A program made the position numbers and the translations under genes. From IMG/VR virus record IMGVR_UViG_3300025106_000016, positions 1 to 20,561 of that record: a stretch of DNA of 20,561 nt, one strand, 5' to 3'. The notes under the pieces were generated by a model that saw only the letters and a program-made list of their open reading frames with translations, was not told the DNA's origin and ran no database searches. Positions 1-20,561 of this stretch are shown piece after piece (position 1 is the first letter of the stretch; each line of letters starts with the position of its first letter). Source of the DNA: a virus.

Positions 1-1145
1 TTTGCAGTCAAAGCCGTAATTGGATTGTGTGTGCTATTCGTACTCACCGGATCAAGATTTCGCTTAGAAACCATCACCGTACCCTCTTTGCCTCCAAGGT
101 ATTTATCAACGAAAATACCGGCAACCTCTACGCCGTTATTGACAAAACATCTCGGTAAGCTGTATCCAGTTTGAGCAGAGCCACTGATGTCAACTTGCAA
201 TCCATTGTACGGGGCAGCGGTATTTACAGAAAGCTTTACATAGTGTTTTGGGATATAAACCATCACCGAGCCTGAAGCATCAGTATAGTTTCCAAAGTTT
301 GCATGAGTTGGGTCATTGTATCCGGTCATCGGAGTCAGTCCGAAAGCTGTTACAAGTGTATCAGGTGCAACACCGACACCAAATCCAACGCCTCCAGGCA
401 CTCCAATGCTTGAGAGCTTCAGTTGAGCCGTGACTGTTATTCCGGCACTGTAAGAGCCGTAATTGTCTTTTGCACGAACCCTAAAGGTTACCGTCTCGTC
501 CGTTGTTACGCTTCCAACCGTAAACAAATGTGCAGAACCGGCAGCAACTTCAGCAGTTGCGACAGTAAGGTTTCCACTTGAGATTTGATCCACGATGTAA
601 TGCGTTACCGTACCATCTGCATCAGTTGATCCGCTAAATGTATGCGAATATGTTTGGTTGTTGTACAGTGTCGCCGGAAATGTATTTGTAGGATTGGACG
701 GCAACTGATTTGGCTGAATGGTTGTGCCATTGCTTCCAGTCCATAGATTTGAACCGGCAGTATTGTCCGTACAAATAAAAAGCTCAGCAGTTGTCAAATT
801 CAGCCATTTTGCATGCAAGTTGGTCGGGTTGACATCTATGCCAGGATTTGTGGTCTCTTCATAATCAAAGCTTGAAGCCGCTTGAAGATTGACCCATTGA
901 CCCCAAGTGCCGTCATTTTGCTTGAAGCGGACTGATGTGCCGTTCCATTCATGCTCAAGACCGACACCATTTGCCAGCTCTTGCAGCTCAGACATAAGCT
1001 CATATTGCAAAGTGTTTAATCCTTGCACCGCTGCGCTCGATTGATTTCCGATTGCGGCGAAAGCCCCGTCATACTTATTGAAAACATCCCTTGCTTTATT
1101 GAGCAACTCTTCAATTGCCAGGTTCAACTCTTCAGTTGTTAACAT
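1..1145 (-). CDS. Large tail fibre / receptor-binding protein, 3' end beyond the window
   Basis: An open frame of 381 codons runs from an ATG at 1145 off the left edge, so the C-terminus is missing. The start has a strong AAAGGAG site 6 nt upstream and overlaps the previous gene by 14 nt. Visible parts in order: an N-terminal helical stretch (residues 1-60); a WNGTSVRF...WGQWVNL segment (about 67-87) of the kind seen in phage fibres; a proline/asparagine linker (140-155); an Ig/cadherin-like beta domain (about 156-240, with the STDADG and VRAKDNYG signatures of such repeats); then a glycine-rich turn and a domain starting with MVYIPKHYVK (295-304) and GIFVDKYLGG (343-352). This last part resembles C-type-lectin/FGE-sulfatase-like domains of phage receptor-binding proteins, including diversity-generating-retroelement targets. 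It is the last gene seen in the tail operon. The role in host binding is inferred from position and domains. Confidence 0.8.
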   Translation of the reverse strand, partial: MLTTEELNLAIEELLNKARDVFNKYDGAFAAIGNQSSAAVQGLNTLQYELMSELQELANGVGLEHEWNGTSVRFKQNDGTWGQWVNLQAASSFDYEETTNPGIDVNPTNLHAKWLNLTTAELFICTDNTAGSNLWTGSNGTTIQPNQLPSNPTNTFPATLYNNQTYSHTFSGSTDADGTVTHYIVDQISSGNLTVATAEVAAGSAHLFTVGSVTTDETVTFRVRAKDNYGSYSAGITVTAQLKLSSIGVPGGVGFGVGVAPDTLVTAFGLTPMTGYNDPTHANFGNYTDASGSVMVYIPKHYVKLSVNTAAPYNGLQVDISGSAQTGYSLPRCFVNNGVEVAGIFVDKYLGGKEGTVMVSKRNLDPVSTNSTHNPITALTA

Positions 1146-1686
1146 CGATAACTCCTTTGTCGATTAGTTTATTTGTGAGATCAAAATAATTTGTTGCGTT
1201 TGCGACAACTGGTCTCAAAACATTTTGCTTATGGTTCAAGAGCTCAGCCGGTGTCACATACTCGCTATTTTTAAAGACAATCACTCCAGGACTACCTTTG
1301 ACAGCTACTTTGACAACGAATGTCCCCCCGACACCCGAGATAAGAACTATCTTTGGAGTCGGCGTGATACTGACGAGCTGATTATCCGTCGAGACAAGCC
1401 CCACTGCATAAGTGTATTTTTGCAAGTCCTCCTCAAGCGGTAAAAGCAGCTCAAAAGTAAGCACTCCCTCATCATCAAAATATGCCGTTTCAACGGTTCC
1501 GTGATAAAAGATATACCCTTGTATGTCGGCATAAGTTACGACCTCGGTATCTTGAAGCAAGGCATCAAGAGAAGTGTTTGTGTATGCAGTTGCGCCGATG
1601 AGCACAAACTTAGTCACCTGATTTCTCAGCTCAGTGTTTAAAATGCCTATACCCTGATTGGTTGGTACGGCGGTTAGATTCGCCAT
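1132..1686 (-). CDS. Tail fibre protein, N-terminal type (small)
   Basis: A 184-aa protein directly after the gpI-like gene, where Mu-type phages carry tail-fibre genes. The N-terminus (LTAVPTNQGIGILN) resembles the start of collar/fibre proteins (the DUF3751-type pattern in which the first domain attaches the fibre to the baseplate). The rest is beta-rich, with TFELLLPLEEDL and YAVGLV as in that family. The ATG at 1686 has a strong AGGAGG site, and the gene overlaps gpI by 13 nt. It probably joins the large fibre encoded next to the gpI end of the baseplate. No catalytic motif is seen. The family call comes from sequence pattern and position only, so a structural or chaperone-like role is also possible. 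Confidence 0.6.
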   Translation of the reverse strand: MANLTAVPTNQGIGILNTELRNQVTKFVLIGATAYTNTSLDALLQDTEVVTYADIQGYIFYHGTVETAYFDDEGVLTFELLLPLEEDLQKYTYAVGLVSTDNQLVSITPTPKIVLISGVGGTFVVKVAVKGSPGVIVFKNSEYVTPAELLNHKQNVLRPVVANATNYFDLTNKLIDKGVIDVNN

Positions 1687-2411
1687 GTAATTCCTCCTAT
1701 TGCGTTAAATTCAAACCCGGTGCTCTTTTGGAGCAAGAGGTCTTTTTGACTCTCTACCCTTTGCACGCTTGCACATGCAAGAGAAAGGTCAGTCTTTGCA
1801 TTGTCTTTTCTTGTCATCGCTAACCGTGATCCATCAACATAAGCCGCCCCCCAGTAGTTATTTAAAGCACCTCCCGAACTCTGCTTGAGGTCTGTTTGAC
1901 CAGATGTGTCAGTTTTCCAGTTCAAGCCGGTATCAGCTCCAATAAGCCCTTTGCTTTTTGGCAGCTCCACATAAAAATTGAGAAACTGCGAACGGGCATT
2001 TTTTGCAGAGTTAATGAGCTCTCTGCACTTCTCAAACTTCTTTGCGTCAAAGACGGCATCAAGCGATACTCCGATGGTAACTTTGGCGTTAAATGTGTAT
2101 GGATCACCTCCAATGTCAAACCACTCTAAAATCTCAGCCTCTGAAAAAATAGACAAAAGAACTTTTTTTACCGAGTAAAGAGTGCCTTGATAACGATGTA
2201 TCTCAATTGAGTTTGTTATCAATGCACGGCTCTCGCTTTCCGATAAACCTGAGATATTGACATCAAACATGTGGGCGAGATACGGAAGCAGCTCTGCTCT
2301 TGCATTTTGAGGCAAGATAGTCACCCCTGATATATCAAGCGTCGATGCACTTTCAAAAATACCGTCAAGACCTTTTAGAGCTTCGCTTTCGTTTTGAGGC
2401 AATAGTGTCAT
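1674..2411 (-). CDS. Baseplate/tail protein I (P2 gpI / Mu gp48 type)
   Basis: A 245-aa protein. The N-terminal two thirds fit the P2 gpI family: LLPQNARAELLPYLAHMFDV (about 33-52), then an RALI..SIEIHRYQGT segment (63-77) and the VKKVL helix, which is the usual core of these baseplate wedge proteins. The last 80 residues are more divergent (SSGGALNNYWGAAYVDGSRLAM). The start at 2411 shares an ATGA overlap with the stop of the gpJ-like gene, indicating translational coupling. In P2 and Mu this protein works with gpJ in the baseplate wedge and links to the fibres. The order here (W, J, I, fibres) matches that arrangement. Confidence 0.85.
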   Translation of the reverse strand: MTLLPQNESEALKGLDGIFESASTLDISGVTILPQNARAELLPYLAHMFDVNISGLSESESRALITNSIEIHRYQGTLYSVKKVLLSIFSEAEILEWFDIGGDPYTFNAKVTIGVSLDAVFDAKKFEKCRELINSAKNARSQFLNFYVELPKSKGLIGADTGLNWKTDTSGQTDLKQSSGGALNNYWGAAYVDGSRLAMTRKDNAKTDLSLACASVQRVESQKDLLLQKSTGFEFNAIGGITWRI

Positions 2412-3493
2412 GCGATCACCTCAAAAGTTAGCTGGACTTCATCGATAACAATGACATCCGCAGCCGTAGCAATAACATCACTGGTCGGCTGGTTAAGAGC
2501 GACCTTGTAAACTCCATCTACATGGCAACTTCTTATGATGTCTGAGAGCGTTAGATTTTGCTTTATTCTAAATCTACGGTTTAGATTTGTTCTGATTGCA
2601 CTCTCGATATTAACCGCCGTGCTTAAATCAAAAACGGTTATTGCTGCATTAATTATTATGCTGACAGGATTTGCAGCTGCTACATTGACGGTGTCCGTAA
2701 GAGGTCTTACTTTCTCATGGTTCAAAGCATCTTCAACACGCTCAATCATCTGCTCATCCACTCCATCAGCTGAAGCAAGATAAACATTGACAACACCAGG
2801 AGAGAGGGAGACAACACTTACATCATCAACACGCTCATCAGCACTCATTGAGTGATAAATATAGCTTCCAACGCTTCCGGCGGTGCTAAATCTTGAAAGA
2901 GACAAAAGATAACGCTCTCTGAGCTCTTCATCGCTCTCAGGTCTGCTACCATTTGCAAAAGGCTCGAGAGACTTTGCTTTTAGCACATAAGGCAATGGTG
3001 TTGTAATATTCTCTGTTTTGGCAGCATCAAACTCAACGAATAACTCAAGCTCAACAACTCCGACCGCTTTAATCTGTCCGGCAACAATCGTTAAATTGCT
3101 TTTTAAACGGCTTTTAAACGCACCATCATCACTGATTAAAGATAGACCGGCTGGAATGATTACATCTGAATACGAAATGCGACTGAGCTCAAACTCATAT
3201 TGTGCATAAGGATAAGCACCAGGGAGACGCTCAACTCCAAGACCGGCAACAAAGTTGTCAAGGTCTGAGCCGGTTGAAGTAGGAAGTAGCATCGCTTTGA
3301 TTGCCTCATTTATCCTTGCTCTCAGAAACATCTCTTTATATGTAAAGCTCTCAATAAGCACCATCCAGTCATCTGACTCGATAGGCTTCCACGCAGGGAA
3401 GATAAGCTGAACTTGAGAAATATTTTGGGCAAGAAGCGTCTCATAGTCAAGCTCTTCAATTACTGCCGGTTTAGGCAACGCTGCTAAATTCAC
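2408..3493 (-). CDS. Baseplate assembly protein J
   Basis: A baseplate_J family protein of 361 aa, a main wedge component of contractile-tail baseplates. I place the start at a GTG at 3493, because GAGGAG lies 7 nt upstream and the resulting N-terminus (NLAALPKPAVIEELDYETLL) is the standard opening of the family. Upstream in-frame TTG 3517 and ATG 3511 lack a site. Family features seen: YPYAQYEFELSR, the IIPAGLSLISDDG strand pair, and the central RPESDEELRERYLLSL segment with the SVGSYIYHSMSADERVDDVSV region. It overlaps the gpW-like gene by 23 nt and is coupled to gpI by ATGA. Function follows from established P2/Mu baseplate biology. Confidence 0.92.
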   Translation of the reverse strand: MNLAALPKPAVIEELDYETLLAQNISQVQLIFPAWKPIESDDWMVLIESFTYKEMFLRARINEAIKAMLLPTSTGSDLDNFVAGLGVERLPGAYPYAQYEFELSRISYSDVIIPAGLSLISDDGAFKSRLKSNLTIVAGQIKAVGVVELELFVEFDAAKTENITTPLPYVLKAKSLEPFANGSRPESDEELRERYLLSLSRFSTAGSVGSYIYHSMSADERVDDVSVVSLSPGVVNVYLASADGVDEQMIERVEDALNHEKVRPLTDTVNVAAANPVSIIINAAITVFDLSTAVNIESAIRTNLNRRFRIKQNLTLSDIIRSCHVDGVYKVALNQPTSDVIATAADVIVIDEVQLTFEVIA

Positions 3494-3764
3494 CCTCAAT
3501 CTCCTCTCCATTGTCAAAGTGCAATGTGTAATAAACCTTTGAGCCCTCTATCTTTCTAAGCTCTACACTGACAAGCTTGACTCGCTTTTCCCATTTATTA
3601 ATTGCTTCAGCGGCAAAACGGATAAAATCAAGCTTCCACTTCTCGTCCATTCGTTTGTCGATGAGCTCATAAAGCCTACTTCCAAACTCGGGACGCATCA
3701 CTCTTGTACCGATAGGCGTTTCAAGTATGCGCTTGATTGACTCTGCAACACTTACCTGGTACAT
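3471..3764 (-). CDS. Baseplate protein W (GPW/gp25 family)
   Basis: A 97-aa protein of the gpW/T4 gp25 family, a small wedge protein with a lysozyme-like fold name but no lytic role in most phages. The opening SVAESIKRILETPIGTRVMR followed by PEFGSRLYELID is the family signature. ATG at 3764; the gene follows the PAAR gene with a 1-nt gap and overlaps gpJ. It is of normal length for the family. Confidence 0.92.
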   Translation of the reverse strand: MYQVSVAESIKRILETPIGTRVMRPEFGSRLYELIDKRMDEKWKLDFIRFAAEAINKWEKRVKLVSVELRKIEGSKVYYTLHFDNGEEIEGEFSSVA

Positions 3765-3765
3765 C

Positions 3766-4050
3766 TCAACCGCCTATAAAAACATTTTGGCTGCCAGCAG
3801 CTTGAGTGCTGCCACAATCAACTGGATCACCAACTTTTTGCGCTGATTTTCCGTTAATAAATACAGAATTTGAACCCGACATCTTTCCAGTGTGGCAATC
3901 TGCGAGACAGCAGTGAGCCGTTGAAACATCTCCGGCTCTGCTTGCTGGTATGCCATTAACAAAAACATTTTGGCTGCCAGCATCTATATTATGATCTCCC
4001 CAGCAACCGTGACCGCTCAAAGCATCACCAATTCTTGTTATTCCTGGCAT
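3766..4050 (-). CDS. PAAR-motif tail spike tip protein
   Basis: A 94-aa PAAR protein. PAAR proteins cap the trimeric gpV spike and form the sharp, metal-bound tip that pierces the cell envelope. The protein starts with the usual ITRIGDALSGHG and has three similar strand units (AGSQNVFVNG, SGSNSVFINGK, AGSQNVFIGG). His and Cys residues that could hold the metal are seen in GHGCWGDH and AHCCLADCH. It sits between spike protein V and gpW, which fits that role. Two of the units are encoded by an identical 22-bp stretch (3778-3799 and 3961-3982). No toxin extension is present. Confidence 0.9.
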   Translation of the reverse strand: MPGITRIGDALSGHGCWGDHNIDAGSQNVFVNGIPASRAGDVSTAHCCLADCHTGKMSGSNSVFINGKSAQKVGDPVDCGSTQAAGSQNVFIGG

Positions 4051-4058
4051 ACAAACTC

Positions 4059-4508
4059 CTAATTCAAATCAAGACGAGCACAGTCAATGTCTATATTGCC
4101 GCCAGCCTCAAGCTTGATATTTCCAGCGGCTTTGATTGTTATGTCCCCGACCGCATTCATAAAAAGATGTTTTGCTTTTGTGTCATACATCACAACCGTT
4201 CCGTCTTCAAACTCAATGACCTCGGTCGTGTCGTTTGCAAGCTCGGGCTCTCTGCATCCACGATTAAAAATCCCACGGATCACAAAACCGCTGCTTGCCT
4301 CACCGTATGGAGAAATGACAATCACTTGCTCTCCGACTCGAAGCGGCACAAAATGCTTTTTAAAAGAGTTTGCAAACATCAGCACCGGCAGAAAATCAGT
4401 CACTCTATCAAGTAGTGTCACTCGAACAAGTGCTTTTGCCTCCACGACTTCGCTAATGGTTCCAACTGCCGCTATGTTTCCAAGCTTTCTGAGTAGTTCG
4501 GCACTCAT
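4059..4508 (-). CDS. Baseplate assembly/spike protein V (P2 gpV / Mu gp45 type)
   Basis: A 149-aa spike protein. The N-terminal half is an OB-fold-like domain (GTISEVVEAKALVRVTLLD, then VGEQVIVISPYGEASSGFVIRGI, residues 16-84). The C-terminal half has the FEDGTVVMYD turn and then short repeats (AVGDITIKAAG, NIKLEAGG, NIDIDC) typical of the triple-stranded beta-helix of membrane-piercing spikes. It starts at 4508 with an ATGA overlap to the preceding gene. It would form the trimeric central spike that carries the PAAR tip encoded next. Confidence 0.92.
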   Translation of the reverse strand: MSAELLRKLGNIAAVGTISEVVEAKALVRVTLLDRVTDFLPVLMFANSFKKHFVPLRVGEQVIVISPYGEASSGFVIRGIFNRGCREPELANDTTEVIEFEDGTVVMYDTKAKHLFMNAVGDITIKAAGNIKLEAGGNIDIDCARLDLN

Positions 4509-4744
4509 TTTTCAATCTCCAGCATAAATTGCTTAAAGTCGTCAGGAGGCAAGTGCTTGAATACAATCGCCCTGAGCAGCTTTAGCTCTTCACTTTGTTG
4601 CTTGACAATTTTTTTCAGCTGCTCAATCTCTTGCTGCTGTTTTTCGATAGTCTTTTGCGAGTTCTGAATTAGCTTCCAAACAGGTATCACCAAAAAGACA
4701 ATCACAAAATTTAAAAGCGGCAGATAAGCGATTACTTGCTCCAT
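4505..4744 (-). CDS. Small membrane protein with coiled coil; possible spanin-like or tail accessory
   Basis: A 79-aa protein with one N-terminal membrane segment (residues about 8-25, LPLLNFVIVFLVIPVW), then a long heptad-like charged helix (28-60, rich in Q/E/K), and a short tail. ATG at 4744 overlaps the holin-type gene by 13 nt. The layout (TM anchor plus periplasmic coiled coil, right after a holin) matches inner-membrane spanins (Rz-like) in general shape, but I see no partner lipoprotein gene nested within it. The annotation as spanin-like is therefore tentative. It is real as a gene by its tight coupling on both sides. Confidence 0.7.
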   Translation of the reverse strand: MEQVIAYLPLLNFVIVFLVIPVWKLIQNSQKTIEKQQQEIEQLKKIVKQQSEELKLLRAIVFKHLPPDDFKQFMLEIEK

Positions 4745-5151
4745 TTAATAACCCCACCTTTTTCGCCGGCAGTCATCATCTTTCCGACTTTCTCAATGGT
4801 TCTTGCACCAAAATAGAACATAAATGAGGTCATTAAAAGGTCTTGCAGCATTTGCAAAACTTGCTGAGGCACATCATTAAAAAATGCCAAGGTAAAGAGC
4901 CCCATAAGATAGACAAGGACGAGCGGTCTGATATTCTTAGAAAGCCAGCTGTCAGATTGCATATCGTTTTTATGTCGCTCAGTAAGTTGTCTTTGCTCTT
5001 CATTCCATGCAACCTGGATTTGTTCTTGCAGATACTTTTCAAACTCTCTTGCCTTTTCAGCTTTTTCTCCATCTGACTCAAATTTTTTATCAAACAGCTC
5101 AAGACCTTTATTGACAAGGGTCGGTATTAAACTTGCGAGTACCGGTACCAT
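4732..5151 (-). CDS. Holin, 3TM-type (GTA_holin_3TM-like)
   Basis: A 139-aa protein with an N-terminal helix (ASLIPTLVNKGLELFD), a charged stretch (25-65), then DSWLSKNIRPLVLVYLMGLF (about 66-85) and a second hydrophobic segment (LLMTSFMFYFGARTIEKV, 104-121). The D-x-W-L-S-K-x-I-R-P-L block before the membrane helices is typical of the phage 3TM holin family. ATG at 5151 with GGAGG upstream. It is the first gene of the leftward tail operon, divergent from the head operon. It is expected to let the endolysin (encoded far away at 16241-16666) through the inner membrane. Confidence 0.75.
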   Translation of the reverse strand: MVPVLASLIPTLVNKGLELFDKKFESDGEKAEKAREFEKYLQEQIQVAWNEEQRQLTERHKNDMQSDSWLSKNIRPLVLVYLMGLFTLAFFNDVPQQVLQMLQDLLMTSFMFYFGARTIEKVGKMMTAGEKGGVIKWSK

Positions 5152-5347
5152 GACTGCAACCTCCGAAAATTAAACTTTTGGCGACATCTTAGGCAAAACG
5201 CTTTTCTTAAATCTATTCTTATTTTTCAGACAAATGCTTTTGAAAAGGCGGCGGCTCAAATTTACGATTACACTGCTTGAGCAAAAACCCTTAATAGATA
5301 TGCCGACAATGTAAATGTAAAAATGGCGCAAAAATTCGGGAGTTGTA
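5152..5347. promoter_or_regulatory. Divergent intergenic region between tail and head operons
   Basis: At 196 bp this is the largest non-coding gap. It separates the leftward holin/tail operon from the rightward head operon, so it must hold, or lie downstream of, promoters for both. I see AT-rich stretches and possible -10-like sequences (TAGATAT near 5295-5301 on the plus strand; TTAAGA near 5216 on the minus strand), but no convincing -35/-10 pair. That would fit activator-dependent late promoters. No credible small gene lies here: a minus-strand frame through the gap overlaps the start of the next gene and has no ribosome site. Confidence 0.5.
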
Positions 5348-5800
5348 ATGGTTGCACTATTTGAAAACGAGCTCAAACAACATTTACAAACACTCGTTGA
5401 CACGCCCGAGTCTGTAAGACCTTATCTCGGAGAGTTCGACGACCCTAAGAGTCTTCAGAGCTGCATCAAATCTGCTCCGGTCATTTTCATAGATTTTGAC
5501 GGGGACGAGGTGATCGATACATATAGAAAGATGTGTCGCTGGAATCTTTACATTGTAGGTTCTACGGCAAGCAAGCAAGAAAAATACAGGGAGGCAAGCA
5601 GACATGAGCTCATAGAATTTATGGAAAAGGTTGACAAAAGCCTTATTGATAGAAGTTTCAGCAATAGCGGAAGCATCAAACTAATCGCATCTAAAAAGAT
5701 TTTTGACGGAATCACAAACCACGGATATTTGAGTGTATATGTCAGAAACTTCTCTGCGGTGCTGTTTGAAGATGAAGTCGAAATTTTAGAAGAGGAGTAA
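5348..5800 (+). CDS. gp37-like head/tail joining protein (DUF1834, Mu gp37 type)
   Basis: A 150-aa protein matching the pattern of Mu gp37 / DUF1834: an N-terminal helix, then IDFDGDEVIDTYRKMCRWNLYIVG (about 48-71) and a C-terminal YLSVYVRNFSAVLFE strand pair. In Mu-type phages this small protein is encoded between capsid and sheath genes and is thought to sit at the head-tail joint. Here it is the first gene of the head operon, upstream of the protease, unlike Mu where it follows the capsid. ATG at 5348, with GGGAG 6 nt upstream. Confidence 0.75.
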   Translation: MVALFENELKQHLQTLVDTPESVRPYLGEFDDPKSLQSCIKSAPVIFIDFDGDEVIDTYRKMCRWNLYIVGSTASKQEKYREASRHELIEFMEKVDKSLIDRSFSNSGSIKLIASKKIFDGITNHGYLSVYVRNFSAVLFEDEVEILEEE

Positions 5801-5804
5801 ATAA

Positions 5805-6659
5805 GTGAAGAGAAACATTTTGTATGCAGACAAAATAATCCCTCTCAAAGAGCCAAACAGCAAGGCTTCAGAGAGTGAAGTTGTAATAGTTGTAGGAGTT
5901 GTAGGGGAGTGGCACGGTCATCCAAACGGATCATTCAAAATCACTGCCGAAGACCTAAAAACTATTAAGGAGAACTTCGACAAACAACAAACCGAAATCG
6001 TTATCGATTACGAGCACCAAACACTTTACGGAACTGAGGCACCCGCTGCGGGATGGATTAGCGAGCTGATGATTGAAGATGACAAACTGCTTGCAAAAGT
6101 ATCCTGGACGGAAAAAGCCGCCGAGTACATCAAAAACGGAGAATACAAATACATCTCGCCAGTGTATGTTTTTGATAGTTTTGATAACAAAACAAACGCC
6201 TACATCGGAATAAAACTTCATTCCGTCGCATTGACAAACACGCCGTTTCTCGATGAATTAGGCGAAGTTCACGCCAACAAACAAAACACCCAAAAGGAGG
6301 AAAACATGGGTAAAGATACAAATCCGGCAAATGCTGAAGATCAAAAAAAACCTGATGCAAAAGGGGCAGATGCTGCAAACCAAGCTGGAGCAGATACAGA
6401 CCTTGCAGCTGAAAACGAAAAGCTAAAAGAGCAGCTTGCAGAAACAAAGGTCGAAGCGGCAATCGCAGCGAACAAAATCACAGCTGACCAAAAAGCGTGG
6501 GCGGTCAAGTATTGCAAACAAGACCCTGAGGGCTTTGAGCAGTTTTTGTCATTTCAAAAACCAAGCAAAGACTTACCTGGAAGTAACATGTATGCAAACA
6601 AAGGCGGTCAAGGTGACGGCATTGATGTCGTAGCACTTGCAACCGGCAACACTAAATAA
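5805..6659 (+). CDS. Prohead protease/scaffold, Mu gpI type
   Basis: A 284-aa protein. The GTG start at 5805 has GAGGAG 7 nt upstream. Residues about 25-155 form the Mu I-protease domain, with VIDYEHQTLYGTEAPAAGWI (66-85, containing the conserved DYEH), then the EYKYISPVYVFD segment and SVALTNTPFLDEL (the family's S-x-x-L-T-N-x-P motif, where the nucleophile Ser is expected). From about 165 the sequence turns low-complexity and coiled-coil (AENEKLKEQLAE), as in scaffold proteins. As in Mu, a second in-frame start seems to make the scaffold alone. The role is head assembly and processing of capsid parts. A run of three 9-bp repeats (AGTTGTAxx) at 5879-5905 encodes the VVIVVGVVG strand. Confidence 0.92.
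   Translation: MKRNILYADKIIPLKEPNSKASESEVVIVVGVVGEWHGHPNGSFKITAEDLKTIKENFDKQQTEIVIDYEHQTLYGTEAPAAGWISELMIEDDKLLAKVSWTEKAAEYIKNGEYKYISPVYVFDSFDNKTNAYIGIKLHSVALTNTPFLDELGEVHANKQNTQKEENMGKDTNPANAEDQKKPDAKGADAANQAGADTDLAAENEKLKEQLAETKVEAAIAANKITADQKAWAVKYCKQDPEGFEQFLSFQKPSKDLPGSNMYANKGGQGDGIDVVALATGNTK
6306..6659 (+). CDS. Nested scaffold protein (Mu gpZ-like internal start)
   Basis: An in-frame ATG at 6306 inside the protease gene is preceded by a near-perfect AAGGAGG (6294-6300) with 5-nt spacing, a stronger site than that of most genes here. Initiation would give a 117-aa protein (MGKDTNPAN...) made only of the linker, coiled coil and C-terminal region. This mirrors the Mu I/Z and lambda C/Nu3 arrangement, where the internal product is the head scaffold. 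It is not a separate gene on the DNA but a second product. Seen: site, frame and start. Inferred: actual expression. Confidence 0.8.
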   Translation: MGKDTNPANAEDQKKPDAKGADAANQAGADTDLAAENEKLKEQLAETKVEAAIAANKITADQKAWAVKYCKQDPEGFEQFLSFQKPSKDLPGSNMYANKGGQGDGIDVVALATGNTK

Positions 6660-6670
6660 AAGGAGAAATC

Positions 6671-7111
6671 ATGGGATTTGAAGCAATGGGACTTAGACAC
6701 AGCGATGTCGTAGTCAATAAAGTTCTAAGCGTAAACGCAACGGTAACAGTGCCGGAAGATGTAACACTTGACATTGGAACACTCTTGTCAAGCTCTGACG
6801 GCGGAGTGACTTTCACTACCCAAACAACGGCTGCTTATGCTGCTGGCTCATACGACACCGGTGATGAAGTTTATCATCTCGGACATATTTTTGAGAGTTT
6901 GGCGGACGCTAACACTGCGGTACCTGGAAGCGACGCTACAAAATGGGAAGACAAAGGGGCGTGGAACGCAAACGGTATTCTATGCGATTACATCGAAACA
7001 ACCGGCGTTGCAAATGTACTTGTTAGCGGTGTGGTGGTTGAGCAAAACTTGACCGGATTTGAAGAGGCTCTAAGAAGCACTCTATTTGAAAACAAAATCA
7101 TCTTGAAATAA
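6671..7111 (+). CDS. Head decoration protein (lambda gpD-like) with a possible carbohydrate-binding-like insert
   Basis: A 146-aa protein encoded between protease and capsid, the lambda gpD position. The N-terminal part (1-45) and the C-terminal part (GILCDYIETTGVANVLVSGVV, then EEALRSTLFENKIIL) fit gpD-type capsid stabilisers. Between them, residues about 56-98 form a segment (AAGSYDTGDEVYHLGHIFES..., ending PGSDATKWEDKGAW) with the Y-x-x-G-D-x-V, Y/F-E-S and PG...W spacing of small chitin/carbohydrate-binding (CBM5/12) domains. ATG at 6671 follows AAGGAG. It would bind the outside of the expanded capsid. The insert call is from pattern only. Confidence 0.75.
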   Translation: MGFEAMGLRHSDVVVNKVLSVNATVTVPEDVTLDIGTLLSSSDGGVTFTTQTTAAYAAGSYDTGDEVYHLGHIFESLADANTAVPGSDATKWEDKGAWNANGILCDYIETTGVANVLVSGVVVEQNLTGFEEALRSTLFENKIILK

Positions 7112-7120
7112 GGACGGACA

Positions 7121-8101
7121 ATGAAAGACATCCTCAAACTGTTTACACTGCAATCAATGATTGCAATCATCAGCCAGCTAAAAGTTGCGCCGAGTTTTGC
7201 ATTTGACAAATACTTTGCAAAATCTCAAAAAGGCGTTTTAGGTTCTACCGTGAACATTCCTATCAAAAAAGGAGCCGGTATCGTTCTTGAGAGCGTATCA
7301 CCAAATGCGGAGCACTTGATCCACGATGAGGGCGATACTTATATGCTTACAGTTACGCTGCCTCGCTTCCCGCTTGAGTCTGTTATCAGTGCAAGCGACA
7401 TGAACGAAATCAAAGCACTTGACGGAACGACTGACCAAGCTCAAGCATTGTCTCAAAAAATCGGAGAGCTGGTGCAAGAGCATAAAGACTCTTTTATGAC
7501 GACAATCGAGTTTATGTCTGTCGGTGCGCTTTTCGGAAAAGTAATGGACGGAAAAGGCAATGTATTGTTTGAGTTCTCAAGCGGAGCTGCTCAAAAGACT
7601 TTCACAAATACAAAGTCAATCATTCAAAGCCTAAACGAAATCGATGACGCTTTGGTTGAAGAGCTCGGAACTGAGGTTGGATATACAATCCTTGCAAGCC
7701 GTTCTTTTATCAGCGGTGTTGCTGCAAGAGCTACGACTGAGGAGCTATTTGCTCAAGGTCAAGCGAAGTGGATCAACGAGGGCGAAAAACGCATCCTTGA
7801 AGTACACGGCAAAAAGTTTATTCCGTACACTGCGAAATACAAAAACGCAAACGGTCAAACAAAAAGCTTTATTGCTGACAATGAAGCAATCGTTACGCCT
7901 GACAGTCCTGAAGTGTACAAACTTTTCTACGGAAGAGCAAACCACACTCAAGCTCTTAACAAAGCTCCGGTGCTATTCTTTACGGCTACGCCTGAGGAGC
8001 TTCCAAAGGGTCGTGGATACTCTATCGTATCAGAAACAAGACCTCTTCCGGTGTGTGTCAGACCAGGTGCTCTTATCAAGCTAAAGTATCAAACTGCATA
8101 A
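7121..8101 (+). CDS. Major capsid protein (lambda gpE family)
   Basis: A 326-aa protein of the phage major capsid protein E family (lambda gpE; HK97 fold), not the Mu gpT type. Family features: GSTVNIPIKKGAG near 41-53, LPRFPLESVISASDMNEIKAL (the rigid helix/loop around 85-105), the VGYTILASRSF strand, the GKKFIPYTAKYKN hairpin and the C-terminal SETRPLPVCVRPGALIKLKY. It is encoded after the decoration gene and followed by a strong hairpin, a common way to favour capsid messenger over downstream genes. Together with the decoration gene it forms a lambda-like D/E pair inside an otherwise Mu-like phage. Confidence 0.9.
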   Translation: MKDILKLFTLQSMIAIISQLKVAPSFAFDKYFAKSQKGVLGSTVNIPIKKGAGIVLESVSPNAEHLIHDEGDTYMLTVTLPRFPLESVISASDMNEIKALDGTTDQAQALSQKIGELVQEHKDSFMTTIEFMSVGALFGKVMDGKGNVLFEFSSGAAQKTFTNTKSIIQSLNEIDDALVEELGTEVGYTILASRSFISGVAARATTEELFAQGQAKWINEGEKRILEVHGKKFIPYTAKYKNANGQTKSFIADNEAIVTPDSPEVYKLFYGRANHTQALNKAPVLFFTATPEELPKGRGYSIVSETRPLPVCVRPGALIKLKYQTA

Positions 8102-8106
8102 AACTA

Positions 8107-8136
8107 ACAGAAAGGGGCTTAAAAGCCCTTTTCTGT
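8107..8136 (+). terminator. Strong hairpin after the capsid gene
   Basis: Two 14-nt arms (8107-8120 and 8123-8136) pair fully with one G-T pair, forming a GC-centred stem six bases after the capsid stop. The run of T lies inside the 3' arm and none follows, so it may be a partial terminator or an RNA-stabilising end rather than a classic intrinsic terminator. Confidence 0.75.
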
Positions 8137-8164
8137 ATCGAGACGATAAAAGATACTAAAAAAA

Positions 8165-8208
8165 GATTTTAAACGATTTACGGCGATTTTAAACACTGTT
8201 TAAACGGT
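8165..8208. promoter_or_regulatory. Repeat-rich operator-like region upstream of the gp36-like gene
   Basis: GATTTTAAAC occurs twice exactly 20 bp apart (8165-8174 and 8185-8194). The second copy runs into a perfect 17-bp odd palindrome (TTTAAACA, C, TGTTTAAA; 8188-8204). Bases 8192-8207 (AACACTGTTTAAACGG) recur exactly at 16209-16224 on the other strand, in the same orientation relative to the genes that follow. This looks like a protein-binding site for a phage regulator. It is non-coding and lies 19 bp before the next start codon. Confidence 0.5.
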
Positions 8209-8226
8209 ATTCCATAAAGGACTAAG

Positions 8227-8622
8227 ATGATAACTAACGAAGACCTGCTAAAAGAGGTATCTCAAAAAGAACTTTTACAGCTTTCAGATGTCAATGCAAC
8301 CGGCGAGATTGACCAGTCTGTTATTGATGATTGCAAACAAGACTCCATCTCTTTTATCAGCTCTTTCATCACGATACCAAATAACCCATCTCCATTGCTT
8401 CGGGATATTGCGGTTGATTTGACAATCATCGAGCTCAAAAAACGAAACGGCTTTCCAAAAGAAGCAATCAAAGAGGCTCAAGAGAAGTGCGAATCACTGC
8501 TCCTCAAAATGGCATCCAAAAAAATACCGACAGAGGTTACGAGCGGAACGAGCTCAAGACCAGTTCAAAAGAAACGCAGCTTTGTACACAATAGCGAGCG
8601 TTTGGATTTAACCGGCTTTTAA
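8227..8622 (+). CDS. gp36-like protein (DUF1320), head-tail connector
   Basis: A 131-aa protein with the DUF1320/Mu gp36 pattern: MITNEDLLKEVSQKELLQLSD, then DQSVIDDCKQDSISFISSF (30-48, a helix-rich core as in connector adaptors) and LLRDIAVDLTIIELKKRNG (57-75). Members act at the portal/neck, by similarity to gp6-type adaptors. The C-terminal third (about 95-131, basic and serine-rich) is not clear. Start ATG 8227 with AAGGA upstream. It is the first gene after the capsid hairpin and the operator-like repeats, so its expression may be set separately from the capsid. Confidence 0.8.
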   Translation: MITNEDLLKEVSQKELLQLSDVNATGEIDQSVIDDCKQDSISFISSFITIPNNPSPLLRDIAVDLTIIELKKRNGFPKEAIKEAQEKCESLLLKMASKKIPTEVTSGTSSRPVQKKRSFVHNSERLDLTGF

Positions 8623-8633
8623 GAGGTGTTTAA

Positions 8634-9065
8634 ATGACGCTTGAAGTAAGAGTAACTGGACTCGATGAGCTAAACAATACACTTGAGAGGCTCGGAAGAT
8701 TTGGCGAAGAGCCTCTACAAAGAGCACTTAAGAGCATAGGAACTGCCGTTGTTGCTCAGACAATAGAGCGTTTTGAAAATGAAGTTGACCCAGACGGCAA
8801 TAAATGGAAGCATCGAAAAGTAGAAACCAATAAAACCCGAGGCAGAAAAATACTGCATAACAGCGGTCAATTAAAAAGAGTTACCTATGTCACGGGCAAA
8901 GGATTTGTCAAGATAGGGGCAACGGTCAATTATGGAGTATTCCATCAGTTTGGCACGAAGAAAATGCCAGCAAGACCATTCTTAGGCATTAACAAAGACG
9001 ATTACGAAGAGATTGCCGACATATTATCAAATCAACTTAGGAAGCATTATGGCACCAACGACTAA
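8634..9065 (+). CDS. Virion morphogenesis protein (Mu gpG / P2 gpS type)
   Basis: A 143-aa protein of the phage virion morphogenesis family, a tail-completion or head-tail joining protein. Signature: ALKSIGTAVVAQTIERFENE (31-50), DPDGNKWKHRK (52-62, the D-P-x-G-x-x-W box), LHNSGQLKR (74-82) and VNYGVFHQFGT (99-109), followed by MPARPFLGI (the M-P-A-R-P-F/W-G-I box). The ATG at 8634 follows GAGGTG. Its end overlaps the next gene by 17 nt. Confidence 0.92.
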   Translation: MTLEVRVTGLDELNNTLERLGRFGEEPLQRALKSIGTAVVAQTIERFENEVDPDGNKWKHRKVETNKTRGRKILHNSGQLKRVTYVTGKGFVKIGATVNYGVFHQFGTKKMPARPFLGINKDDYEEIADILSNQLRKHYGTND

Positions 9066-9537
9066 TACCAAAGAGCTTGCAAAAGAGCTTTATCTTAAAG
9101 GCTTTGACATTGACAAAATCGCTCAGATATTGTCAAAGAACTCAAAGACAATAAAAAACTACAAAAGCCAAGACGGTGATTGGGATGAGCTCAGAGCTGC
9201 CGGTTACCTGAATAAGCGTGGCGATGATAAAGTCGTGATTTATCAAAACTTCATTGAGCAGATGTATCTCGCAGTCAAAGAGATAAATGAGTCAAGCCTA
9301 AAAGCAAACGAGAAAGCATCGGCACTCTCTCAGCTCGGAGACTCTTTTGCAAAAATGAAAAAAGTGGCAAGTTTTGAAGACCCTGAGAGCTACAAACTCG
9401 CAATTGCAAAAAGAGTGGTGCAGCTGATCGTCGGAGAGTTCAAAAATACCGGAGACAAAAAGTGTATTGAAAAGATTGTCGAAATGCTTGATAGCAAAGA
9501 GTTTACCGACAGCTTAGGAACGATAGATGTTGTTTAG
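9049..9537 (+). CDS. Terminase small subunit-like protein (DUF1804, Mu gp27 type)
   Basis: A 162-aa protein. I choose ATG 9049 (MAPTTNTKEL) over an upstream in-frame ATG at 9013, because AGGA precedes it and the family's N-terminus fits. An N-terminal HTH (ELYLKGFDIDKIAQILSKN, then SKTIKNYKSQ) is followed by DWDELRAAG and a helical C-terminal region. DUF1804 proteins are encoded directly before the Mu-type large terminase and are taken as the DNA-recognition subunit for packaging. The same pairing is seen here, with an 11-nt overlap into the large-subunit gene. Confidence 0.82.
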   Translation: MAPTTNTKELAKELYLKGFDIDKIAQILSKNSKTIKNYKSQDGDWDELRAAGYLNKRGDDKVVIYQNFIEQMYLAVKEINESSLKANEKASALSQLGDSFAKMKKVASFEDPESYKLAIAKRVVQLIVGEFKNTGDKKCIEKIVEMLDSKEFTDSLGTIDVV

Positions 9538-11212
9538 CAAAGAAGAGCTCGACTCGTTTCTTGAAGAGACAAGACTTAGCTATGAGCTTGACGGGAAAGA
9601 TGAAAAGAGTATCCGAAAACTCACACGAAAAGACTTTGTTGATTGGTTGGATGACCTCAAAGATGAGCTTCGCAGTCAAATCTTATGCAATGCAACGCTT
9701 GACCCAAAAACAAGAGATGAGCGTGTTGCAAGAGGCGAGCACGATTTTGAGTTTTGGGCGAGAACTTACTTCCCACACTATTTCAGCATACCTGGAAAAA
9801 ATGCGCTTCACGAATACCTTGAGGAAAAGTTTGTCGAGATTACGACAACGCTCGAGGGAACCAAAAACGCTATTGCCGCACCGAGGGGACATGCAAAAAC
9901 GACTTATGTATCGCAGCTATTTCCTTTGTGGTGTGCAACCTATAAAAAGAAACGCTTTATCGTTGAAATATCAGACGCAGTCGAACTGGTCGAGGGAAAT
10001 CTCGAAGCAATCAAAGTCGAGCTTGAGGACAATGAAAACCTCAAAGCTGATTTTCCTGATGTCTGCGGTGTAGGTACCAGCTGGAAAGTCGGGGAGTTTG
10101 TAACTCGCAACGGTGTTAAGTTCAAAGCGTTTGGTAGCGGCAAAAGACTCAGGGGTGTAAAGTTTGGCGTATATCGACCCGACCTCACAATCCTTGACGA
10201 CCTTGAGAACGATACAAATGTGCGAAGTAAAGCACAAAGAGACAAGCTCGAGGAGTGGCTCGATGAAGCGGTATTGAACTTAGGCTCAGCCGATAGGTCG
10301 ATGGATATTATTTACATCGGAACCATTCTACACCGAGACAGCGTGCTTGCACGAAAGCTCAAGCTCCAGTTTTGGAACCCTAAAAAGTTTCAGTCCGTTA
10401 TCACTTTTCCAAAGCGCATGGACCTATGGGATAGATACGGCTTTATTTACAAAAACATGGGAACGCATGAGGCAGAGGCTTTCTATCTCAAGCATAGAGT
10501 CGAAATGGATGAGGGAGCAGAGGTTCTTTGGAAAGAAGCTCTCCCGATTAACAAGCTCATGCAAATCAGAGCGGAGACCCCAAAAGCGTTTAATAAAGAG
10601 CAGATGAACAATCCTCTCAGCGAGGCTCAAAAGTTCAAAAAAGAGAACATGCACTTTTATCATACTGCTCCAAAATGCGACCGCCATATTATGTGGGTTG
10701 ACCCTGCCGGTGAAAAAAAGAAAAGCGACTATACTGCAATCACGGTTCTCGGCATTAAAGAGAGCGAGCGCAAAGGCTATGTGCTTGAGAGCAATGTCAA
10801 GGTCATGCCGGCACGAGAGATCATCAACACGGTTATCAAGCTTCAGCAGCTCTACCGTTGCAAGATTATCGGAGTTGAGACAAACGGCGGTCAGTTCTTT
10901 CTCAAAGGCTGGATGCTTGAAGCGGCATTTGATGCTGGAGTGCATCTGCCACTCAAGGGGATTGACAACTATCAAAACAAAGAGGCAAGGATTGAGGAGC
11001 TTGAGCTTCCAATCGAAAACGGGGAAATACTATTCCATAAAAGCCACACGCTTCTTATTGAGCAGCTTGAGGAGTTTCCTGAGGGTGAAAACGATGACGC
11101 ACCGGACAGCTTACACGGTGCTTATATGCTCAGTAAGCTTGCAAAAACAAAGAAAAAGAAAAAACGGTCAAACCGTGTTATCAGAAAACGACCAGGAGTG
11201 ATGGATGATTAA
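9527..11212 (+). CDS. Terminase large subunit (Mu gp28 type)
   Basis: A 561-aa DNA-packaging motor ATPase/nuclease. Walker A-like AAPRGHAKTT (117-126), Walker B LTILDD (220-225, acidic pair D224/D225), then coupling motif IYIGTILH (262-269). The C-terminal RNase H-like nuclease starts at HIMWVDPAGE (387-396, D392), with GVETNGGQ (E451) and the acidic DDAPDSLHGA (523-532) completing the metal site. The ATG at 9527 has AGGA upstream. The end (KKKKKRSNR) is strongly basic. It works with the DUF1804 protein upstream and the portal downstream to fill heads, by a headful mechanism in Mu relatives. Confidence 0.95.
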   Translation: MLFSKEELDSFLEETRLSYELDGKDEKSIRKLTRKDFVDWLDDLKDELRSQILCNATLDPKTRDERVARGEHDFEFWARTYFPHYFSIPGKNALHEYLEEKFVEITTTLEGTKNAIAAPRGHAKTTYVSQLFPLWCATYKKKRFIVEISDAVELVEGNLEAIKVELEDNENLKADFPDVCGVGTSWKVGEFVTRNGVKFKAFGSGKRLRGVKFGVYRPDLTILDDLENDTNVRSKAQRDKLEEWLDEAVLNLGSADRSMDIIYIGTILHRDSVLARKLKLQFWNPKKFQSVITFPKRMDLWDRYGFIYKNMGTHEAEAFYLKHRVEMDEGAEVLWKEALPINKLMQIRAETPKAFNKEQMNNPLSEAQKFKKENMHFYHTAPKCDRHIMWVDPAGEKKKSDYTAITVLGIKESERKGYVLESNVKVMPAREIINTVIKLQQLYRCKIIGVETNGGQFFLKGWMLEAAFDAGVHLPLKGIDNYQNKEARIEELELPIENGEILFHKSHTLLIEQLEEFPEGENDDAPDSLHGAYMLSKLAKTKKKKKRSNRVIRKRPGVMDD

Positions 11213-12590: not shown

Positions 12591-13260
12591 CTTTGGCAAG
12601 GTAACGCCGGAGGAGGCGATTGAATACTTTGTTAAAAAGCTGCTTTTGTCGTCCGAGGAATTTGCAGCTCTTGAGCAAGATGCAAAGACAATGGCTTTCA
12701 CGGTGAGCGAACTGTCCAAACAGACAGAACTCGAGTTTGTGTTTGACTCTATAAAAAAGGCACTGGAAGAGGGGCAAGGATTTAGCGAGTGGAAAAAGCA
12801 GACAAAGGAGCTTTGGAAGCAGAAAGGATGGAGTGATTTTAGAATTAAAACAGTCTATCAGACAAATATGCACCAAGCAAAATCAGTCGGAACATGGAAG
12901 CAAATCCAAGAAACAAAAGAGGATTTTCCTTATTTGAGGTACTCTGCAATTTTAGACTCACACACACGACCATCTCATGCGTCGATGCACGGTAAAGTAT
13001 TGCCGGTTAATGATAAGTTTTGGGATAGTTTTTATCCTCCAAACGGGTTTAACTGTCGTTGTCAGGCTTATGCTATCACAGAAATAAAAGCCAAGAAGTT
13101 TGGAGTCACGCCGGATGTGGCGAAAGTAGGATTTGCGGATGAGGGTTGGAATTACAACGCTGGAAAAGCGTATGATAAGAAAATAAATGGATTGTTAGAT
13201 GAGCAGAGCTCGAAGACAGAAAAGTCAAAGAACGAAGTGAGGAGCCTATTAAAAAAATAG
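12583..13260 (+). CDS. Mu gpF-like minor head protein (gp30 type)
   Basis: A 225-aa head morphogenesis protein. The hallmark block lies at 90-160: TVYQTNMHQAK, RYSAILDSHTRPSHASMHGK (R, H and H conserved), FWDSFYPPNGFNCRC (the P-P-x-G-x-x-C-R-C end). The last 30 residues are charged. Members (Mu gpF, SPP1 gp7) bind the portal and go into the head. It is shorter than Mu gpF, keeping little beyond the core. It is the last gene of the plus-strand head operon, overlapping the portal gene by 8 nt, and its stop is 1 bp from the stop of the opposing lipoprotein gene. Confidence 0.92.
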   Translation: MINFGKVTPEEAIEYFVKKLLLSSEEFAALEQDAKTMAFTVSELSKQTELEFVFDSIKKALEEGQGFSEWKKQTKELWKQKGWSDFRIKTVYQTNMHQAKSVGTWKQIQETKEDFPYLRYSAILDSHTRPSHASMHGKVLPVNDKFWDSFYPPNGFNCRCQAYAITEIKAKKFGVTPDVAKVGFADEGWNYNAGKAYDKKINGLLDEQSSKTEKSKNEVRSLLKK

Positions 13261-13261
13261 G

Positions 13262-18256: not shown

Positions 18257-19195
18257 CTACCTCAATAACAACATCTCGACCGCAGTCTCGATGACATCTT
18301 TTGTGATCTCAGTGCCGTAGCTTTTTGCCAGTCTCTCAGAACGCTTGAGGAGCTTCTCTGTTTTTCGGAAGTTCCCTTTTGTAAACTGCTTGATTGTTTT
18401 TGCAATCGCAATCTCTGTTATTCCAAAGAGCTTGCAGACCGCCTTGAGGTCATCATCTATCTCAACGACTTTGCCCTCGCTCTCTTTGGCGTAAGTGAGA
18501 CCTTGCAGCACCCACTTACCGCCGACTCTTGAGCTGAGCTGCTCATATTCGTCATAGTCACTCTCGCCTCCGGTGAGGTTTTTGATGAGCTTTTTGGTTC
18601 CGGCAAGTATCAAAGGACTTTTTGAGAAGTCATACATCCGTCGCAGTAGCTCCAATGCCCGATAAGGTAAGTGTTCTGCCTCATCAATGATGATAAACTT
18701 CTCACTTTTTTGGAGTATCGAAGCGCACTCTCGCACCGTGAGGTCGAGGCTTCCTTTGTATTGAGAGCCAAGCAGCTCAGCAATCTTTTTAAAAAGGTCT
18801 CTTGCAGTGGTGCTGATGGTTGCTTCAATCAAGATACACTCGGGATGATTTTTTGCAAACTCCCTGAGCGTTCGACTCTTGCCGGTTCCGGCTTTGCCTA
18901 CAATGACCGCCATATCCTCATCCATCACAGCCCATTCGATAACTGCAAAGACACTTTTTGCGTCTCTTGTCATCACAAATTCAAGCTCTGCCTCTTTTCT
19001 TTTGCTTGTCTTTTCGATATAATTTGCGATGTATGTTTTAGCAGGGGTGATGACTTTATCTTTGTACTGGTAATCATCTCCTTGCTGCATATACCCACTC
19101 AAATAAGCCGGATTAACTCCGATTGTCTTTGCGAACTTGTTTTGACTAATCCCCTGAGCCTCTATAAACTCCAAAATCTGATCCCGTAAATCCAT
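18257..19195 (-). CDS. Transposition protein MuB-type AAA+ ATPase
   Basis: A 312-aa ATPase that selects target DNA and activates the transposase. The N-terminus has an HTH of the lambda-repressor kind (ISQNKFAKTIGVNPAYLSGY, 16-35), as in MuB. Walker A GKAGTGKS (100-107) and Walker B FIIIDEAEH (167-175) follow, then a sensor-like ILAGTKKLIKNL. The last 60 residues (ITEIAIAKTIKQFTKGNFRK and on) form the helical C-terminal domain. ATG 19195 with AAAGGAG. It is the gene right after the transposase, 59 bp away, as in Mu and relatives. MuB also gives target immunity in Mu, by established knowledge. Confidence 0.93.
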   Translation of the reverse strand: MDLRDQILEFIEAQGISQNKFAKTIGVNPAYLSGYMQQGDDYQYKDKVITPAKTYIANYIEKTSKRKEAELEFVMTRDAKSVFAVIEWAVMDEDMAVIVGKAGTGKSRTLREFAKNHPECILIEATISTTARDLFKKIAELLGSQYKGSLDLTVRECASILQKSEKFIIIDEAEHLPYRALELLRRMYDFSKSPLILAGTKKLIKNLTGGESDYDEYEQLSSRVGGKWVLQGLTYAKESEGKVVEIDDDLKAVCKLFGITEIAIAKTIKQFTKGNFRKTEKLLKRSERLAKSYGTEITKDVIETAVEMLLLR

Positions 19196-19254: not shown

Positions 19255-20561
19255 TCAACTCCAATTGACCGCTTTTTCAATGACGCTGTCCCAGCTGAGC
19301 TTGCTTCTTTTTTCACTTCCTGGCATAACCATTTTGTCAATGTCAAAAACACGCTCTCTGATACTGTCAACCTCTCTTTGTTCCCGCAGCTTCTCTCTGA
19401 CATCTGCGACGACATCACTATTGACAGCTTCCACTTTTTGAGGTTTAAGCGACTCTTTGTGAGTCTCGAGCATCCGCTCCAAATCCTCTTCGATTGTAAG
19501 CCGTGTAAATGCGCTGAACTCTGCCGACTTGATGACGGCTCTGACCTGACGCATATCCTCTTTGAAAACCTTTTTGACCGCTTTGTACTGCTCCGCAGAC
19601 ATGTGAGCAATCTCTTTGTCGTAGGCTCGGCAGATAAACTTCCCTCCAAGGTCGAAAACAAATATCTCTTGAGCGTTGTCGATGTTCTCTCTGACCACCA
19701 CTTTGGTACCGACCGGAGGCAGTGCATCCCCGACAAAGCGCAACGCTTCGTATTCGATACCTTTCTTGCTTACCGTTCTGATCTCAGCTCCACCGGCATA
19801 CAAGACAAACTCTTCATAAGCCACTTTTCTGATTGGTGTAGCATCGGAGTTCCATCTATCCATCGGAGACTCGTTTTTGCGTCTGACACGCATGATGTCC
19901 CATTTGGCGACCTCAGTATCAAGCCTCATTTTCATTTGCTCAAATGTCAAAAGGTGCAGTTGGTTTGTCTTTTTCACATTCCCAAACTGGTCTTTTGCTT
20001 TTCGGTCTCGCTTTGGCGTTCTCTGCTCTATCATTTCACGCTTTGCCAAGCTGTTTCCGATGTATCCAGGTGTAAAGCTGATACCGCTATGCTGAACCGT
20101 TCGGAAGTGTCTCTCAACAAATCCTTTCTCATCACCGGCATAAGCGACCGCTCTGTCGTAGTCGATACCAAGACCGTTGAGTAGCTCTTGAAACTGTTTT
20201 GATAGATAGTCTTTTCCGTTGTCACCTTTAATGTATTCAGGCTTTCCGAACTTCTCAAGAGCTTTCCAAATCAAACGGATAAGCGAGAGAGCATTTGATG
20301 TTCGCTCTAAACTCATAACGCTTCGACCGCTGAACACATCAACTATTGAGAGGATGTTTGGTCTAAATGCCGCACCAGTCTCTCCGTCTCTCACCATCGC
20401 ATCAAGAGGCGATGAGTCAACTTGCCAGCACTGATTGCGTCTGATGATGAGCTCTTTTTGATTGCCCATTGCCGGTTGCAAATAGCTTTTTGCTTTATCT
20501 TCGCCAAGCGTAACCATCACATACTCAAGCCGATTGTTTTTATAGTAGTTGTCGATAAAGC
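19255..20561 (-). CDS. Mu-type DDE transposase, 5' end beyond the window
   Basis: The last 434 residues of a transposase (rve core, Mu C-terminal barrel). The frame is open up to the right edge, so the N-terminal DNA-binding domains are missing. Catalytic residues in the visible part: D48 (CWQVDSS), D113 (YIKGDNGKDY) and E149 (KGFVERHF). The spacing is D-64-D-35-E. From about 225 the Mu_transpos_C barrel starts (NESPMDRWNS...LPPVGTKVVVRENID), and the end (about 360-434) holds the helical region that in Mu contacts MuB. It catalyses strand cleavage and joining for integration and replicative transposition. Confidence 0.93.
   Translation of the reverse strand, partial: FIDNYYKNNRLEYVMVTLGEDKAKSYLQPAMGNQKELIIRRNQCWQVDSSPLDAMVRDGETGAAFRPNILSIVDVFSGRSVMSLERTSNALSLIRLIWKALEKFGKPEYIKGDNGKDYLSKQFQELLNGLGIDYDRAVAYAGDEKGFVERHFRTVQHSGISFTPGYIGNSLAKREMIEQRTPKRDRKAKDQFGNVKKTNQLHLLTFEQMKMRLDTEVAKWDIMRVRRKNESPMDRWNSDATPIRKVAYEEFVLYAGGAEIRTVSKKGIEYEALRFVGDALPPVGTKVVVRENIDNAQEIFVFDLGGKFICRAYDKEIAHMSAEQYKAVKKVFKEDMRQVRAVIKSAEFSAFTRLTIEEDLERMLETHKESLKPQKVEAVNSDVVADVREKLREQREVDSIRERVFDIDKMVMPGSEKRSKLSWDSVIEKAVNWS

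Follow-up and report, generated by a model that had tools for sequence, protein, structure and literature searches.

A tail-fibre gene cut by the end of a Mu-like Campylobacterota phage contig is the probable target of a diversity-generating retroelement just past that end

The fibre gene and its setting in the window

The stretch of DNA that we analysed (the window) is an entire IMG/VR record of 20,561 bases, the left end of which cuts a tail-fibre gene at residue 381. The gene, which had originally been placed at 1–900, begins with an ATG at position 1145 of the minus strand and is open through the left edge at position 3 (3..1145), and its first 381 codons encode a protein with 75–90% identity to related fibres. 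In full-length relatives (L008 and L009, described below) the fibre is 653 amino acids long, which leaves ~270 C-terminal residues, including the variable region, beyond the left edge of the window. Pfam and NCBIfam searches of the fibre matched no family, and phrog_20912, a family of unassigned function, matched its last 135 visible residues (E=1.5e-39). This match marks the start of a conserved C-terminal domain (residues 244–378; 12..416, minus strand), a constant portion that lies upstream of the variable region and that both family profile and fold relate to TaqVP, as detailed below. Three peptides that the original prediction had quoted from the fibre were found at the residue numbers it gave: MVYIPKHYVK at residues 295–304 (window 263..234), LPRCFVNNGVEVAGIFVDKY at residues 330–349 (window 158..99) and KRNLDPVSTNSTHNPI at residues 361–376 (window 65..18).

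Upstream of the fibre gene and on the same minus strand lie a small protein with conserved synteny (1132..1686; 95% identity in L008 and L009), a P2 gpI-like tail protein I (1674..2411; Tail_P2_I, PF09684, E=6.8e-25), a Baseplate J-like protein (2408..3517; PF04865, E=5.6e-26), a gp25-like baseplate wedge protein (3471..3764; PF04965, E=7.8e-15) and a PAAR spike-tip protein (3766..4050; PF05488, E=5.8e-18). The large terminase subunit is encoded on the plus strand (9527..11212) and is 97% identical to that of L009, in keeping with membership of the same phage lineage. At the far end of the window, both on the minus strand, are a MuB-like AAA ATPase (18257..19195; AAA_22, E=1.2e-20, and Phage-MuB_C, E=2e-4) and a DDE transposase with a Mu-type C-terminus (rve plus Mu-transpos_C; 19255..20559; PF09299, E=1.9e-12, and PF00665, E=7.9e-12), the latter truncated at the right edge. 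These two genes bear out the proposal that the phage is Mu-like, and because they share the window with a run of tail and baseplate genes directly upstream of the fibre gene, its description as the fibre of a Mu-like phage stands.

Within the window itself we found no reverse transcriptase (RT), a repeat search returned no repeats, and comparison of the window with the template repeat (TR), variable region (VR), Avd and RT of L009 gave no match. A search for a record overlapping the window's left edge likewise found none.

Related loci and the cassette they carry

A first scan of viral contigs yielded L001, which begins inside the fibre gene and runs 4.8 kb further in the direction missing from the window, carrying the whole cassette. 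A genome scan yielded L007 (Epsilonproteobacteria MAG tcs-49), L008 (a Sulfurimonas MAG) and L009 (an Aliarcobacter MAG), the host genus of the last two being assigned by MAG binning, and further IMG/VR viral contigs supplied L012 together with more distant loci; Baseplate J used as bait among viral contigs gave no confirmed relative. The window's fibre is 90% identical to those of L008 and L009 across all 381 residues, 77% identical to that of L007, and 75% identical to that of L001 over 347 residues. L009 represents the window's phage, with 97% identity in the terminase, 94% in the head protein, 92% in Baseplate J and 90% in the fibre, and with gene order and orientation conserved; as far as L008 extends, the identities of its tail module to the window equal those of L009. 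Complete cassettes occur in the three Campylobacterota MAG loci (L007, L008 and L009), in two IMG/VR contigs (L012 and L030) and in L001. The five near relatives in which the region downstream can be read (L001, L007, L008, L009 and L012) all keep the cassette intact. The contig L030 (IMGVR_UViG_3300025106_000052, 1–10836) starts ~107 bp past the point at which the window stops (L009 coordinates 11151 and 11043, respectively) and is 85% identical to L009, the same divergence as that of the window; it possibly represents the missing half of the window's phage, but the argument here does not rely on it as proof. The fibre of L012 (9896–11563) is a natural length variant, shorter by ~100 residues in the segment that joins its N-terminal portion to the C-terminal domain.

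In these relatives the rest of the fibre gene with its VR is followed by a hairpin, avd, TR and RT, then by two small genes and finally by the gene for the tail sheath. In L009, on which the window ends at 11043, VR occupies 11724–11835, avd 11892–12293 and TR 12321–12432, and the RT gene ends at 13543; mapped through L009, these features would lie 681–792 bp (VR), 849–1250 bp (avd), 1278–1389 bp (TR) and up to 2500 bp (RT end) past the window's left edge. The VR of the relatives ends ~7 codons short of the fibre stop. One of the small genes that precede the sheath is interrupted by a TAG in L009 (14073–14555) and is intact in L008. The RT, template repeat and Avd that had been predicted to lie further left are thus all present there in the nearest relatives, from which we infer that the window's own molecule carries the cassette too. 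The predicted variable C-terminus, too, falls outside the left edge, but the peptides quoted for it belong to the constant part of the protein, and the VR starts only 681 bp past the edge, as judged from L009.

The RT of the relatives matches PF00078 and contains GVPIGNLLSQ, GIPIGNLLSQ or GVPLGNLLSQ together with YVDD, such that VPIGNLLSQ supplies the (I/V/L)GxxxSQ motif for which the original prediction had suggested looking. Its closest solved structure is 8ub7 (E=1.5e-69), which we take to be the RT of the BPP-1 diversity-generating retroelement (DGR), followed by group II intron RTs (E=2.4e-32). The Avd protein matches PF22296 (bAvd; E=2.9e-17, above the cut-off) and phrog_3206, annotated as 'Avd protein of DGR' (E=9.4e-21), and matches NF033474 with E=2.5e-20 at 72.7 bits, under that model's strict cut-off of 80.

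It had also been proposed that the C-terminus of the fibre resembles a C-type lectin (CLec) domain. A profile built from 13 C-terminal domains had a single match among solved structures, 5VF4 (E=1.6e-4), with one region of similarity at GIADLxGNxWE and a second in the variable region. An AlphaFold model of the fibre C-terminus had a low mean confidence (pLDDT 57, pTM 0.71), and when it was used in a fold search 5VF4 was the sole match at E<=0.001 (E=2.4e-4, probability 1.00); among viral proteins, its best structural match was the homologous fibre of a Firehammervirus. The structure 5VF4 is that of TaqVP, a DGR variable protein with an FGE-type CLec fold (PMC6328139). The proposed CLec fold of the fibre tip therefore depends on the agreement of two weak results, one of them from a model of low confidence, and the two are not fully independent because the model was built from the profile's alignment.

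In an even sample of the phylum, the fibre family was present in 6 of 397 Campylobacterota genomes, with an Avd gene directly downstream in all six, and the same arrangement is found in a prophage of Helicobacter ganmani. The genome bin of L009 contains a second, distinct DGR a few kb upstream of the prophage (L021, 10556–14899; G005:C6, ~117.5–121.9 kb), which comprises a target gene (10556–11542) with its VR at 11419–11540, avd (11560–11907), TR (11932–12053) and RT (12199–13272), followed by sheath-like and tube-like genes. Its VR and TR mismatch nearly exclusively at TR adenines, and its gene order is that of the window's lineage.

The template and variable repeats

As anticipated by the original prediction, which had called for a template repeat of roughly 100 bp differing from the fibre's 3′ end at adenines, the relatives contain a VR and TR of 112 bp whose mismatches fall at TR adenines in 14 of 14 cases in L009 and 10 of 10 in L001. 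Across 13 of the 14 related loci, 164 of 172 VR/TR mismatches were at TR adenines (per-locus hypergeometric P of 3.5e-7 to 6.6e-13). The exception left out of this count was L002 (7079–7583), in which only 7 of 13 mismatches were at TR adenines and the avd frame was shortened, and its DGR, by sequence, looks decayed. A truncated further pair in L029 had 13 of its 15 mismatches at adenines. The near-repeat of L005, a Firehammervirus, was rejected as a DGR pair, being 74 bp long with mismatches that were not restricted to adenines. When read in the frame of the fibre, the TR adenines all occupied codon positions 1 or 2 at every locus except L016, which had two at position 3. An AAY-rich template of this kind is the usual design of a DGR.

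Comparison of closely related loci pointed to recent activity. Between L008 and L009, the TRs were identical (0 of 112 bases differing), and differences were few from avd to TR (3/429), in the remaining RT (2/1111) and in the fibre gene before the VR (43/1825), whereas the VRs differed at 18 of 112 bases, 17 of which corresponded to TR adenines. Analogously, L001 and L007 had identical TRs and VRs that differed at eight positions, all eight at TR adenines. Identical TRs combined with VR differences at TR adenines, a pattern that drift does not give, indicate recent independent rewriting of VRs from one template, and the sequences of the two nearest prophages (L008 and L009) thus carry the signature of recent mutagenic retrohoming.

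A perfect hairpin stood immediately 3′ of the VR, and never of the TR, in eight loci. In L001, L007, L008, L009 and L012 it had the form GCAGGGT-loop-ACCCTGC with a loop of GATA, GACA or GAGA, and in L013, L014 and L006 it had a stem of 9–10 bp and a GATA loop. When the L009 stretch was shuffled 20,000 times, no GRNA-loop hairpin with a stem of 7 bp arose. Phage DGRs have been described with stems of 7–10 bp with a four-nucleotide GRNA loop situated 4–34 bp past the VR, and in BPP-1 the hairpin is needed for efficient homing (PMC3240598). In a distant clade (L002, L011 and L015–L017) no perfect hairpin was found after the VR. Just after the VR of L011, L015, L016 and L017 there is a conserved stretch like GTGAACGATAGTGAACGG, and target recognition in that clade may differ.

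Probable diversification of the fibre tip

Taken together, these comparisons make it highly likely that the gene at the left end of the window encodes the receptor-binding fibre of a Mu-like Campylobacterota myophage and is the target of a DGR directly past the edge, the cassette parts, adenine restriction, hairpin and recent VR replacement having been read in relatives. By analogy with BPP-1, the TR RNA would be copied by an RT–Avd complex that inserts bases at random opposite adenines of the template, and the mutated cDNA would replace the VR, guided by the GC-rich 3′ end of the VR and the hairpin immediately downstream. AAY codons in the TR would thereby give rise to many other codons, such that about a dozen exposed residues of the CLec tip would vary while the scaffold stayed constant. 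The varied surface presumably binds the host receptor, as suggested by its position, its fold and the parallel with BPP-1, and the Mu-like phage very probably alters this receptor-binding surface by targeted mutation.

The window ends before its own downstream region, and its phage might have lost the DGR or kept a fixed fibre tip, having the domain without diversifying it. This reading draws on the decayed-looking pair of L002 and on the Campylobacter phages of the CP220 group, which have homologous fibres and of which the member tested (CJLB-14) has no RT. We nevertheless consider it very unlikely, because L001, L007, L008, L009 and L012 all retain the cassette, the two nearest of these have fibres with 90% identity to the window's, and Avd adjoins the fibre gene in every one of the six Campylobacterota genomes that have the family. 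Our evidence comes from static assemblies, which would also accommodate a VR and TR that are merely a passively drifting duplication with no active DGR. The chance of this is negligible, however, given that mismatches are limited to adenines in a single copy and sit at the two codon positions where a change alters the amino acid, and that the VRs of sister prophages differ almost solely at TR adenines while their TR is identical.

A further idea, which would add to the DGR rather than exclude it, is that the TR is also translated, in which case the RT would start at an ATG overlapping the 3′ end of avd and would bear at its N terminus the fibre's tip peptide in unmutated form, with a separate function. 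An RT frame that stays open from the ATG at the avd stop, through the TR in the VR's frame and on into the RT domain, occurs in ten loci from two clades (L001, L007–L009, L011, L012, L015–L017 and L030; 2292–3560 in L001 and 12287–13543 in L009), and the alignment of phrog_1423 to the RT begins at residue 14. Against this, the leader and the spacer outside the TR show no codon-level constraint, their differences being distributed across all three codon positions and non-synonymous codons being in excess (in the spacer, 17 non-synonymous versus 4 synonymous codons between L015 and L016, and 13 versus 2 between L009 and L001), whereas changes in the RT core are mostly at third positions. In addition, RT residues 1–91 were modelled at very low confidence and without secondary structure, the solved relative 8ub7 aligns only from residue 91 onward, and L014 and L006 have no fusion of the leader to the RT. 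A translated, functional leader is accordingly improbable, and the codon-position counts, lack of structure and alignment start favour an RNA-level sequence that is open by chance. Annotated RTs of the open-leader loci would start with an unmutated copy of the fibre tip peptide.

The DGR of the window's lineage has its parts in the same order as that of Bordetella phage BPP-1 (mtd-avd-TR-brt). In both, the VR lies 3′-terminally in a fibre gene, TR and VR differ specifically at adenines, Avd is present, the RT has an (I/V/L)GxxxSQ-type motif and a GRNA-loop hairpin follows the VR. The system described here differs in host phylum and in having a target nearer to TaqVP than to Mtd, and its phage is a Mu-like myophage and not of the BPP-1 type. 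The hankyphage of Bacteroides is likewise a Mu-like transposable phage with a DGR that diversifies a tail protein, and its related prophages in different hosts likewise have identical TRs and diverse VRs (PMC6199706, PMC12135933), but its host phylum is different and its target has been described as unlike any characterised protein (PMC6199706). TaqVP of Thermus aquaticus (5VF4) has an FGE-type CLec fold with its variable region at the extreme C-terminus, as here, but is a single-domain monomer (PMC6328139), whereas the domain studied here forms the tip of a fibre of 653 residues encoded beside baseplate genes. Fibres of Firehammervirus (the CP220 group) share the C-terminal domain family at 40–42% identity, but the genome of the member tested, CJLB-14, is without RT, and no near-repeat that had the length of the TR and VR and was restricted to adenines turned up beside the fibre homologue. 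Because a homologous domain thus occurs in a phage that has no RT, the domain alone is no proof of a DGR, and the motif on which the original prediction drew is a good lead to one rather than proof.

The system is a complete DGR of an ordinary and known kind, carried by a Mu-like phage in the manner of the hankyphage. The literature on DGRs in connection with Sulfurimonas, Campylobacter, Helicobacter or Arcobacter, searched outside supplementary tables, contained no such system, and the main text of a large DGR catalogue (PMC8144416) has no word starting with 'Campylo' or 'Epsilon'. DGRs apparently have not so far been described in Campylobacterota, and catalogues that draw on IMG data may already include the loci.

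The near-identical cassettes in the Aliarcobacter and Sulfurimonas bins, with their strongest local divergence in the VR of the fibre, raise the idea that one Mu-like phage lineage crosses genera of Campylobacterota, aided by DGR-driven receptor switching, which we regard as conceivable but rather doubtful. Sister prophages in two genera, with identical templates and different VRs, provide a natural setting in which to ask whether a change of host is followed by the retroelement. The window also illustrates that a contig end can conceal a DGR that is predictable from the constant part of its target. More broadly, these loci point to targeted fibre mutagenesis in phages of both sulfur-oxidising and host-associated Campylobacterota.
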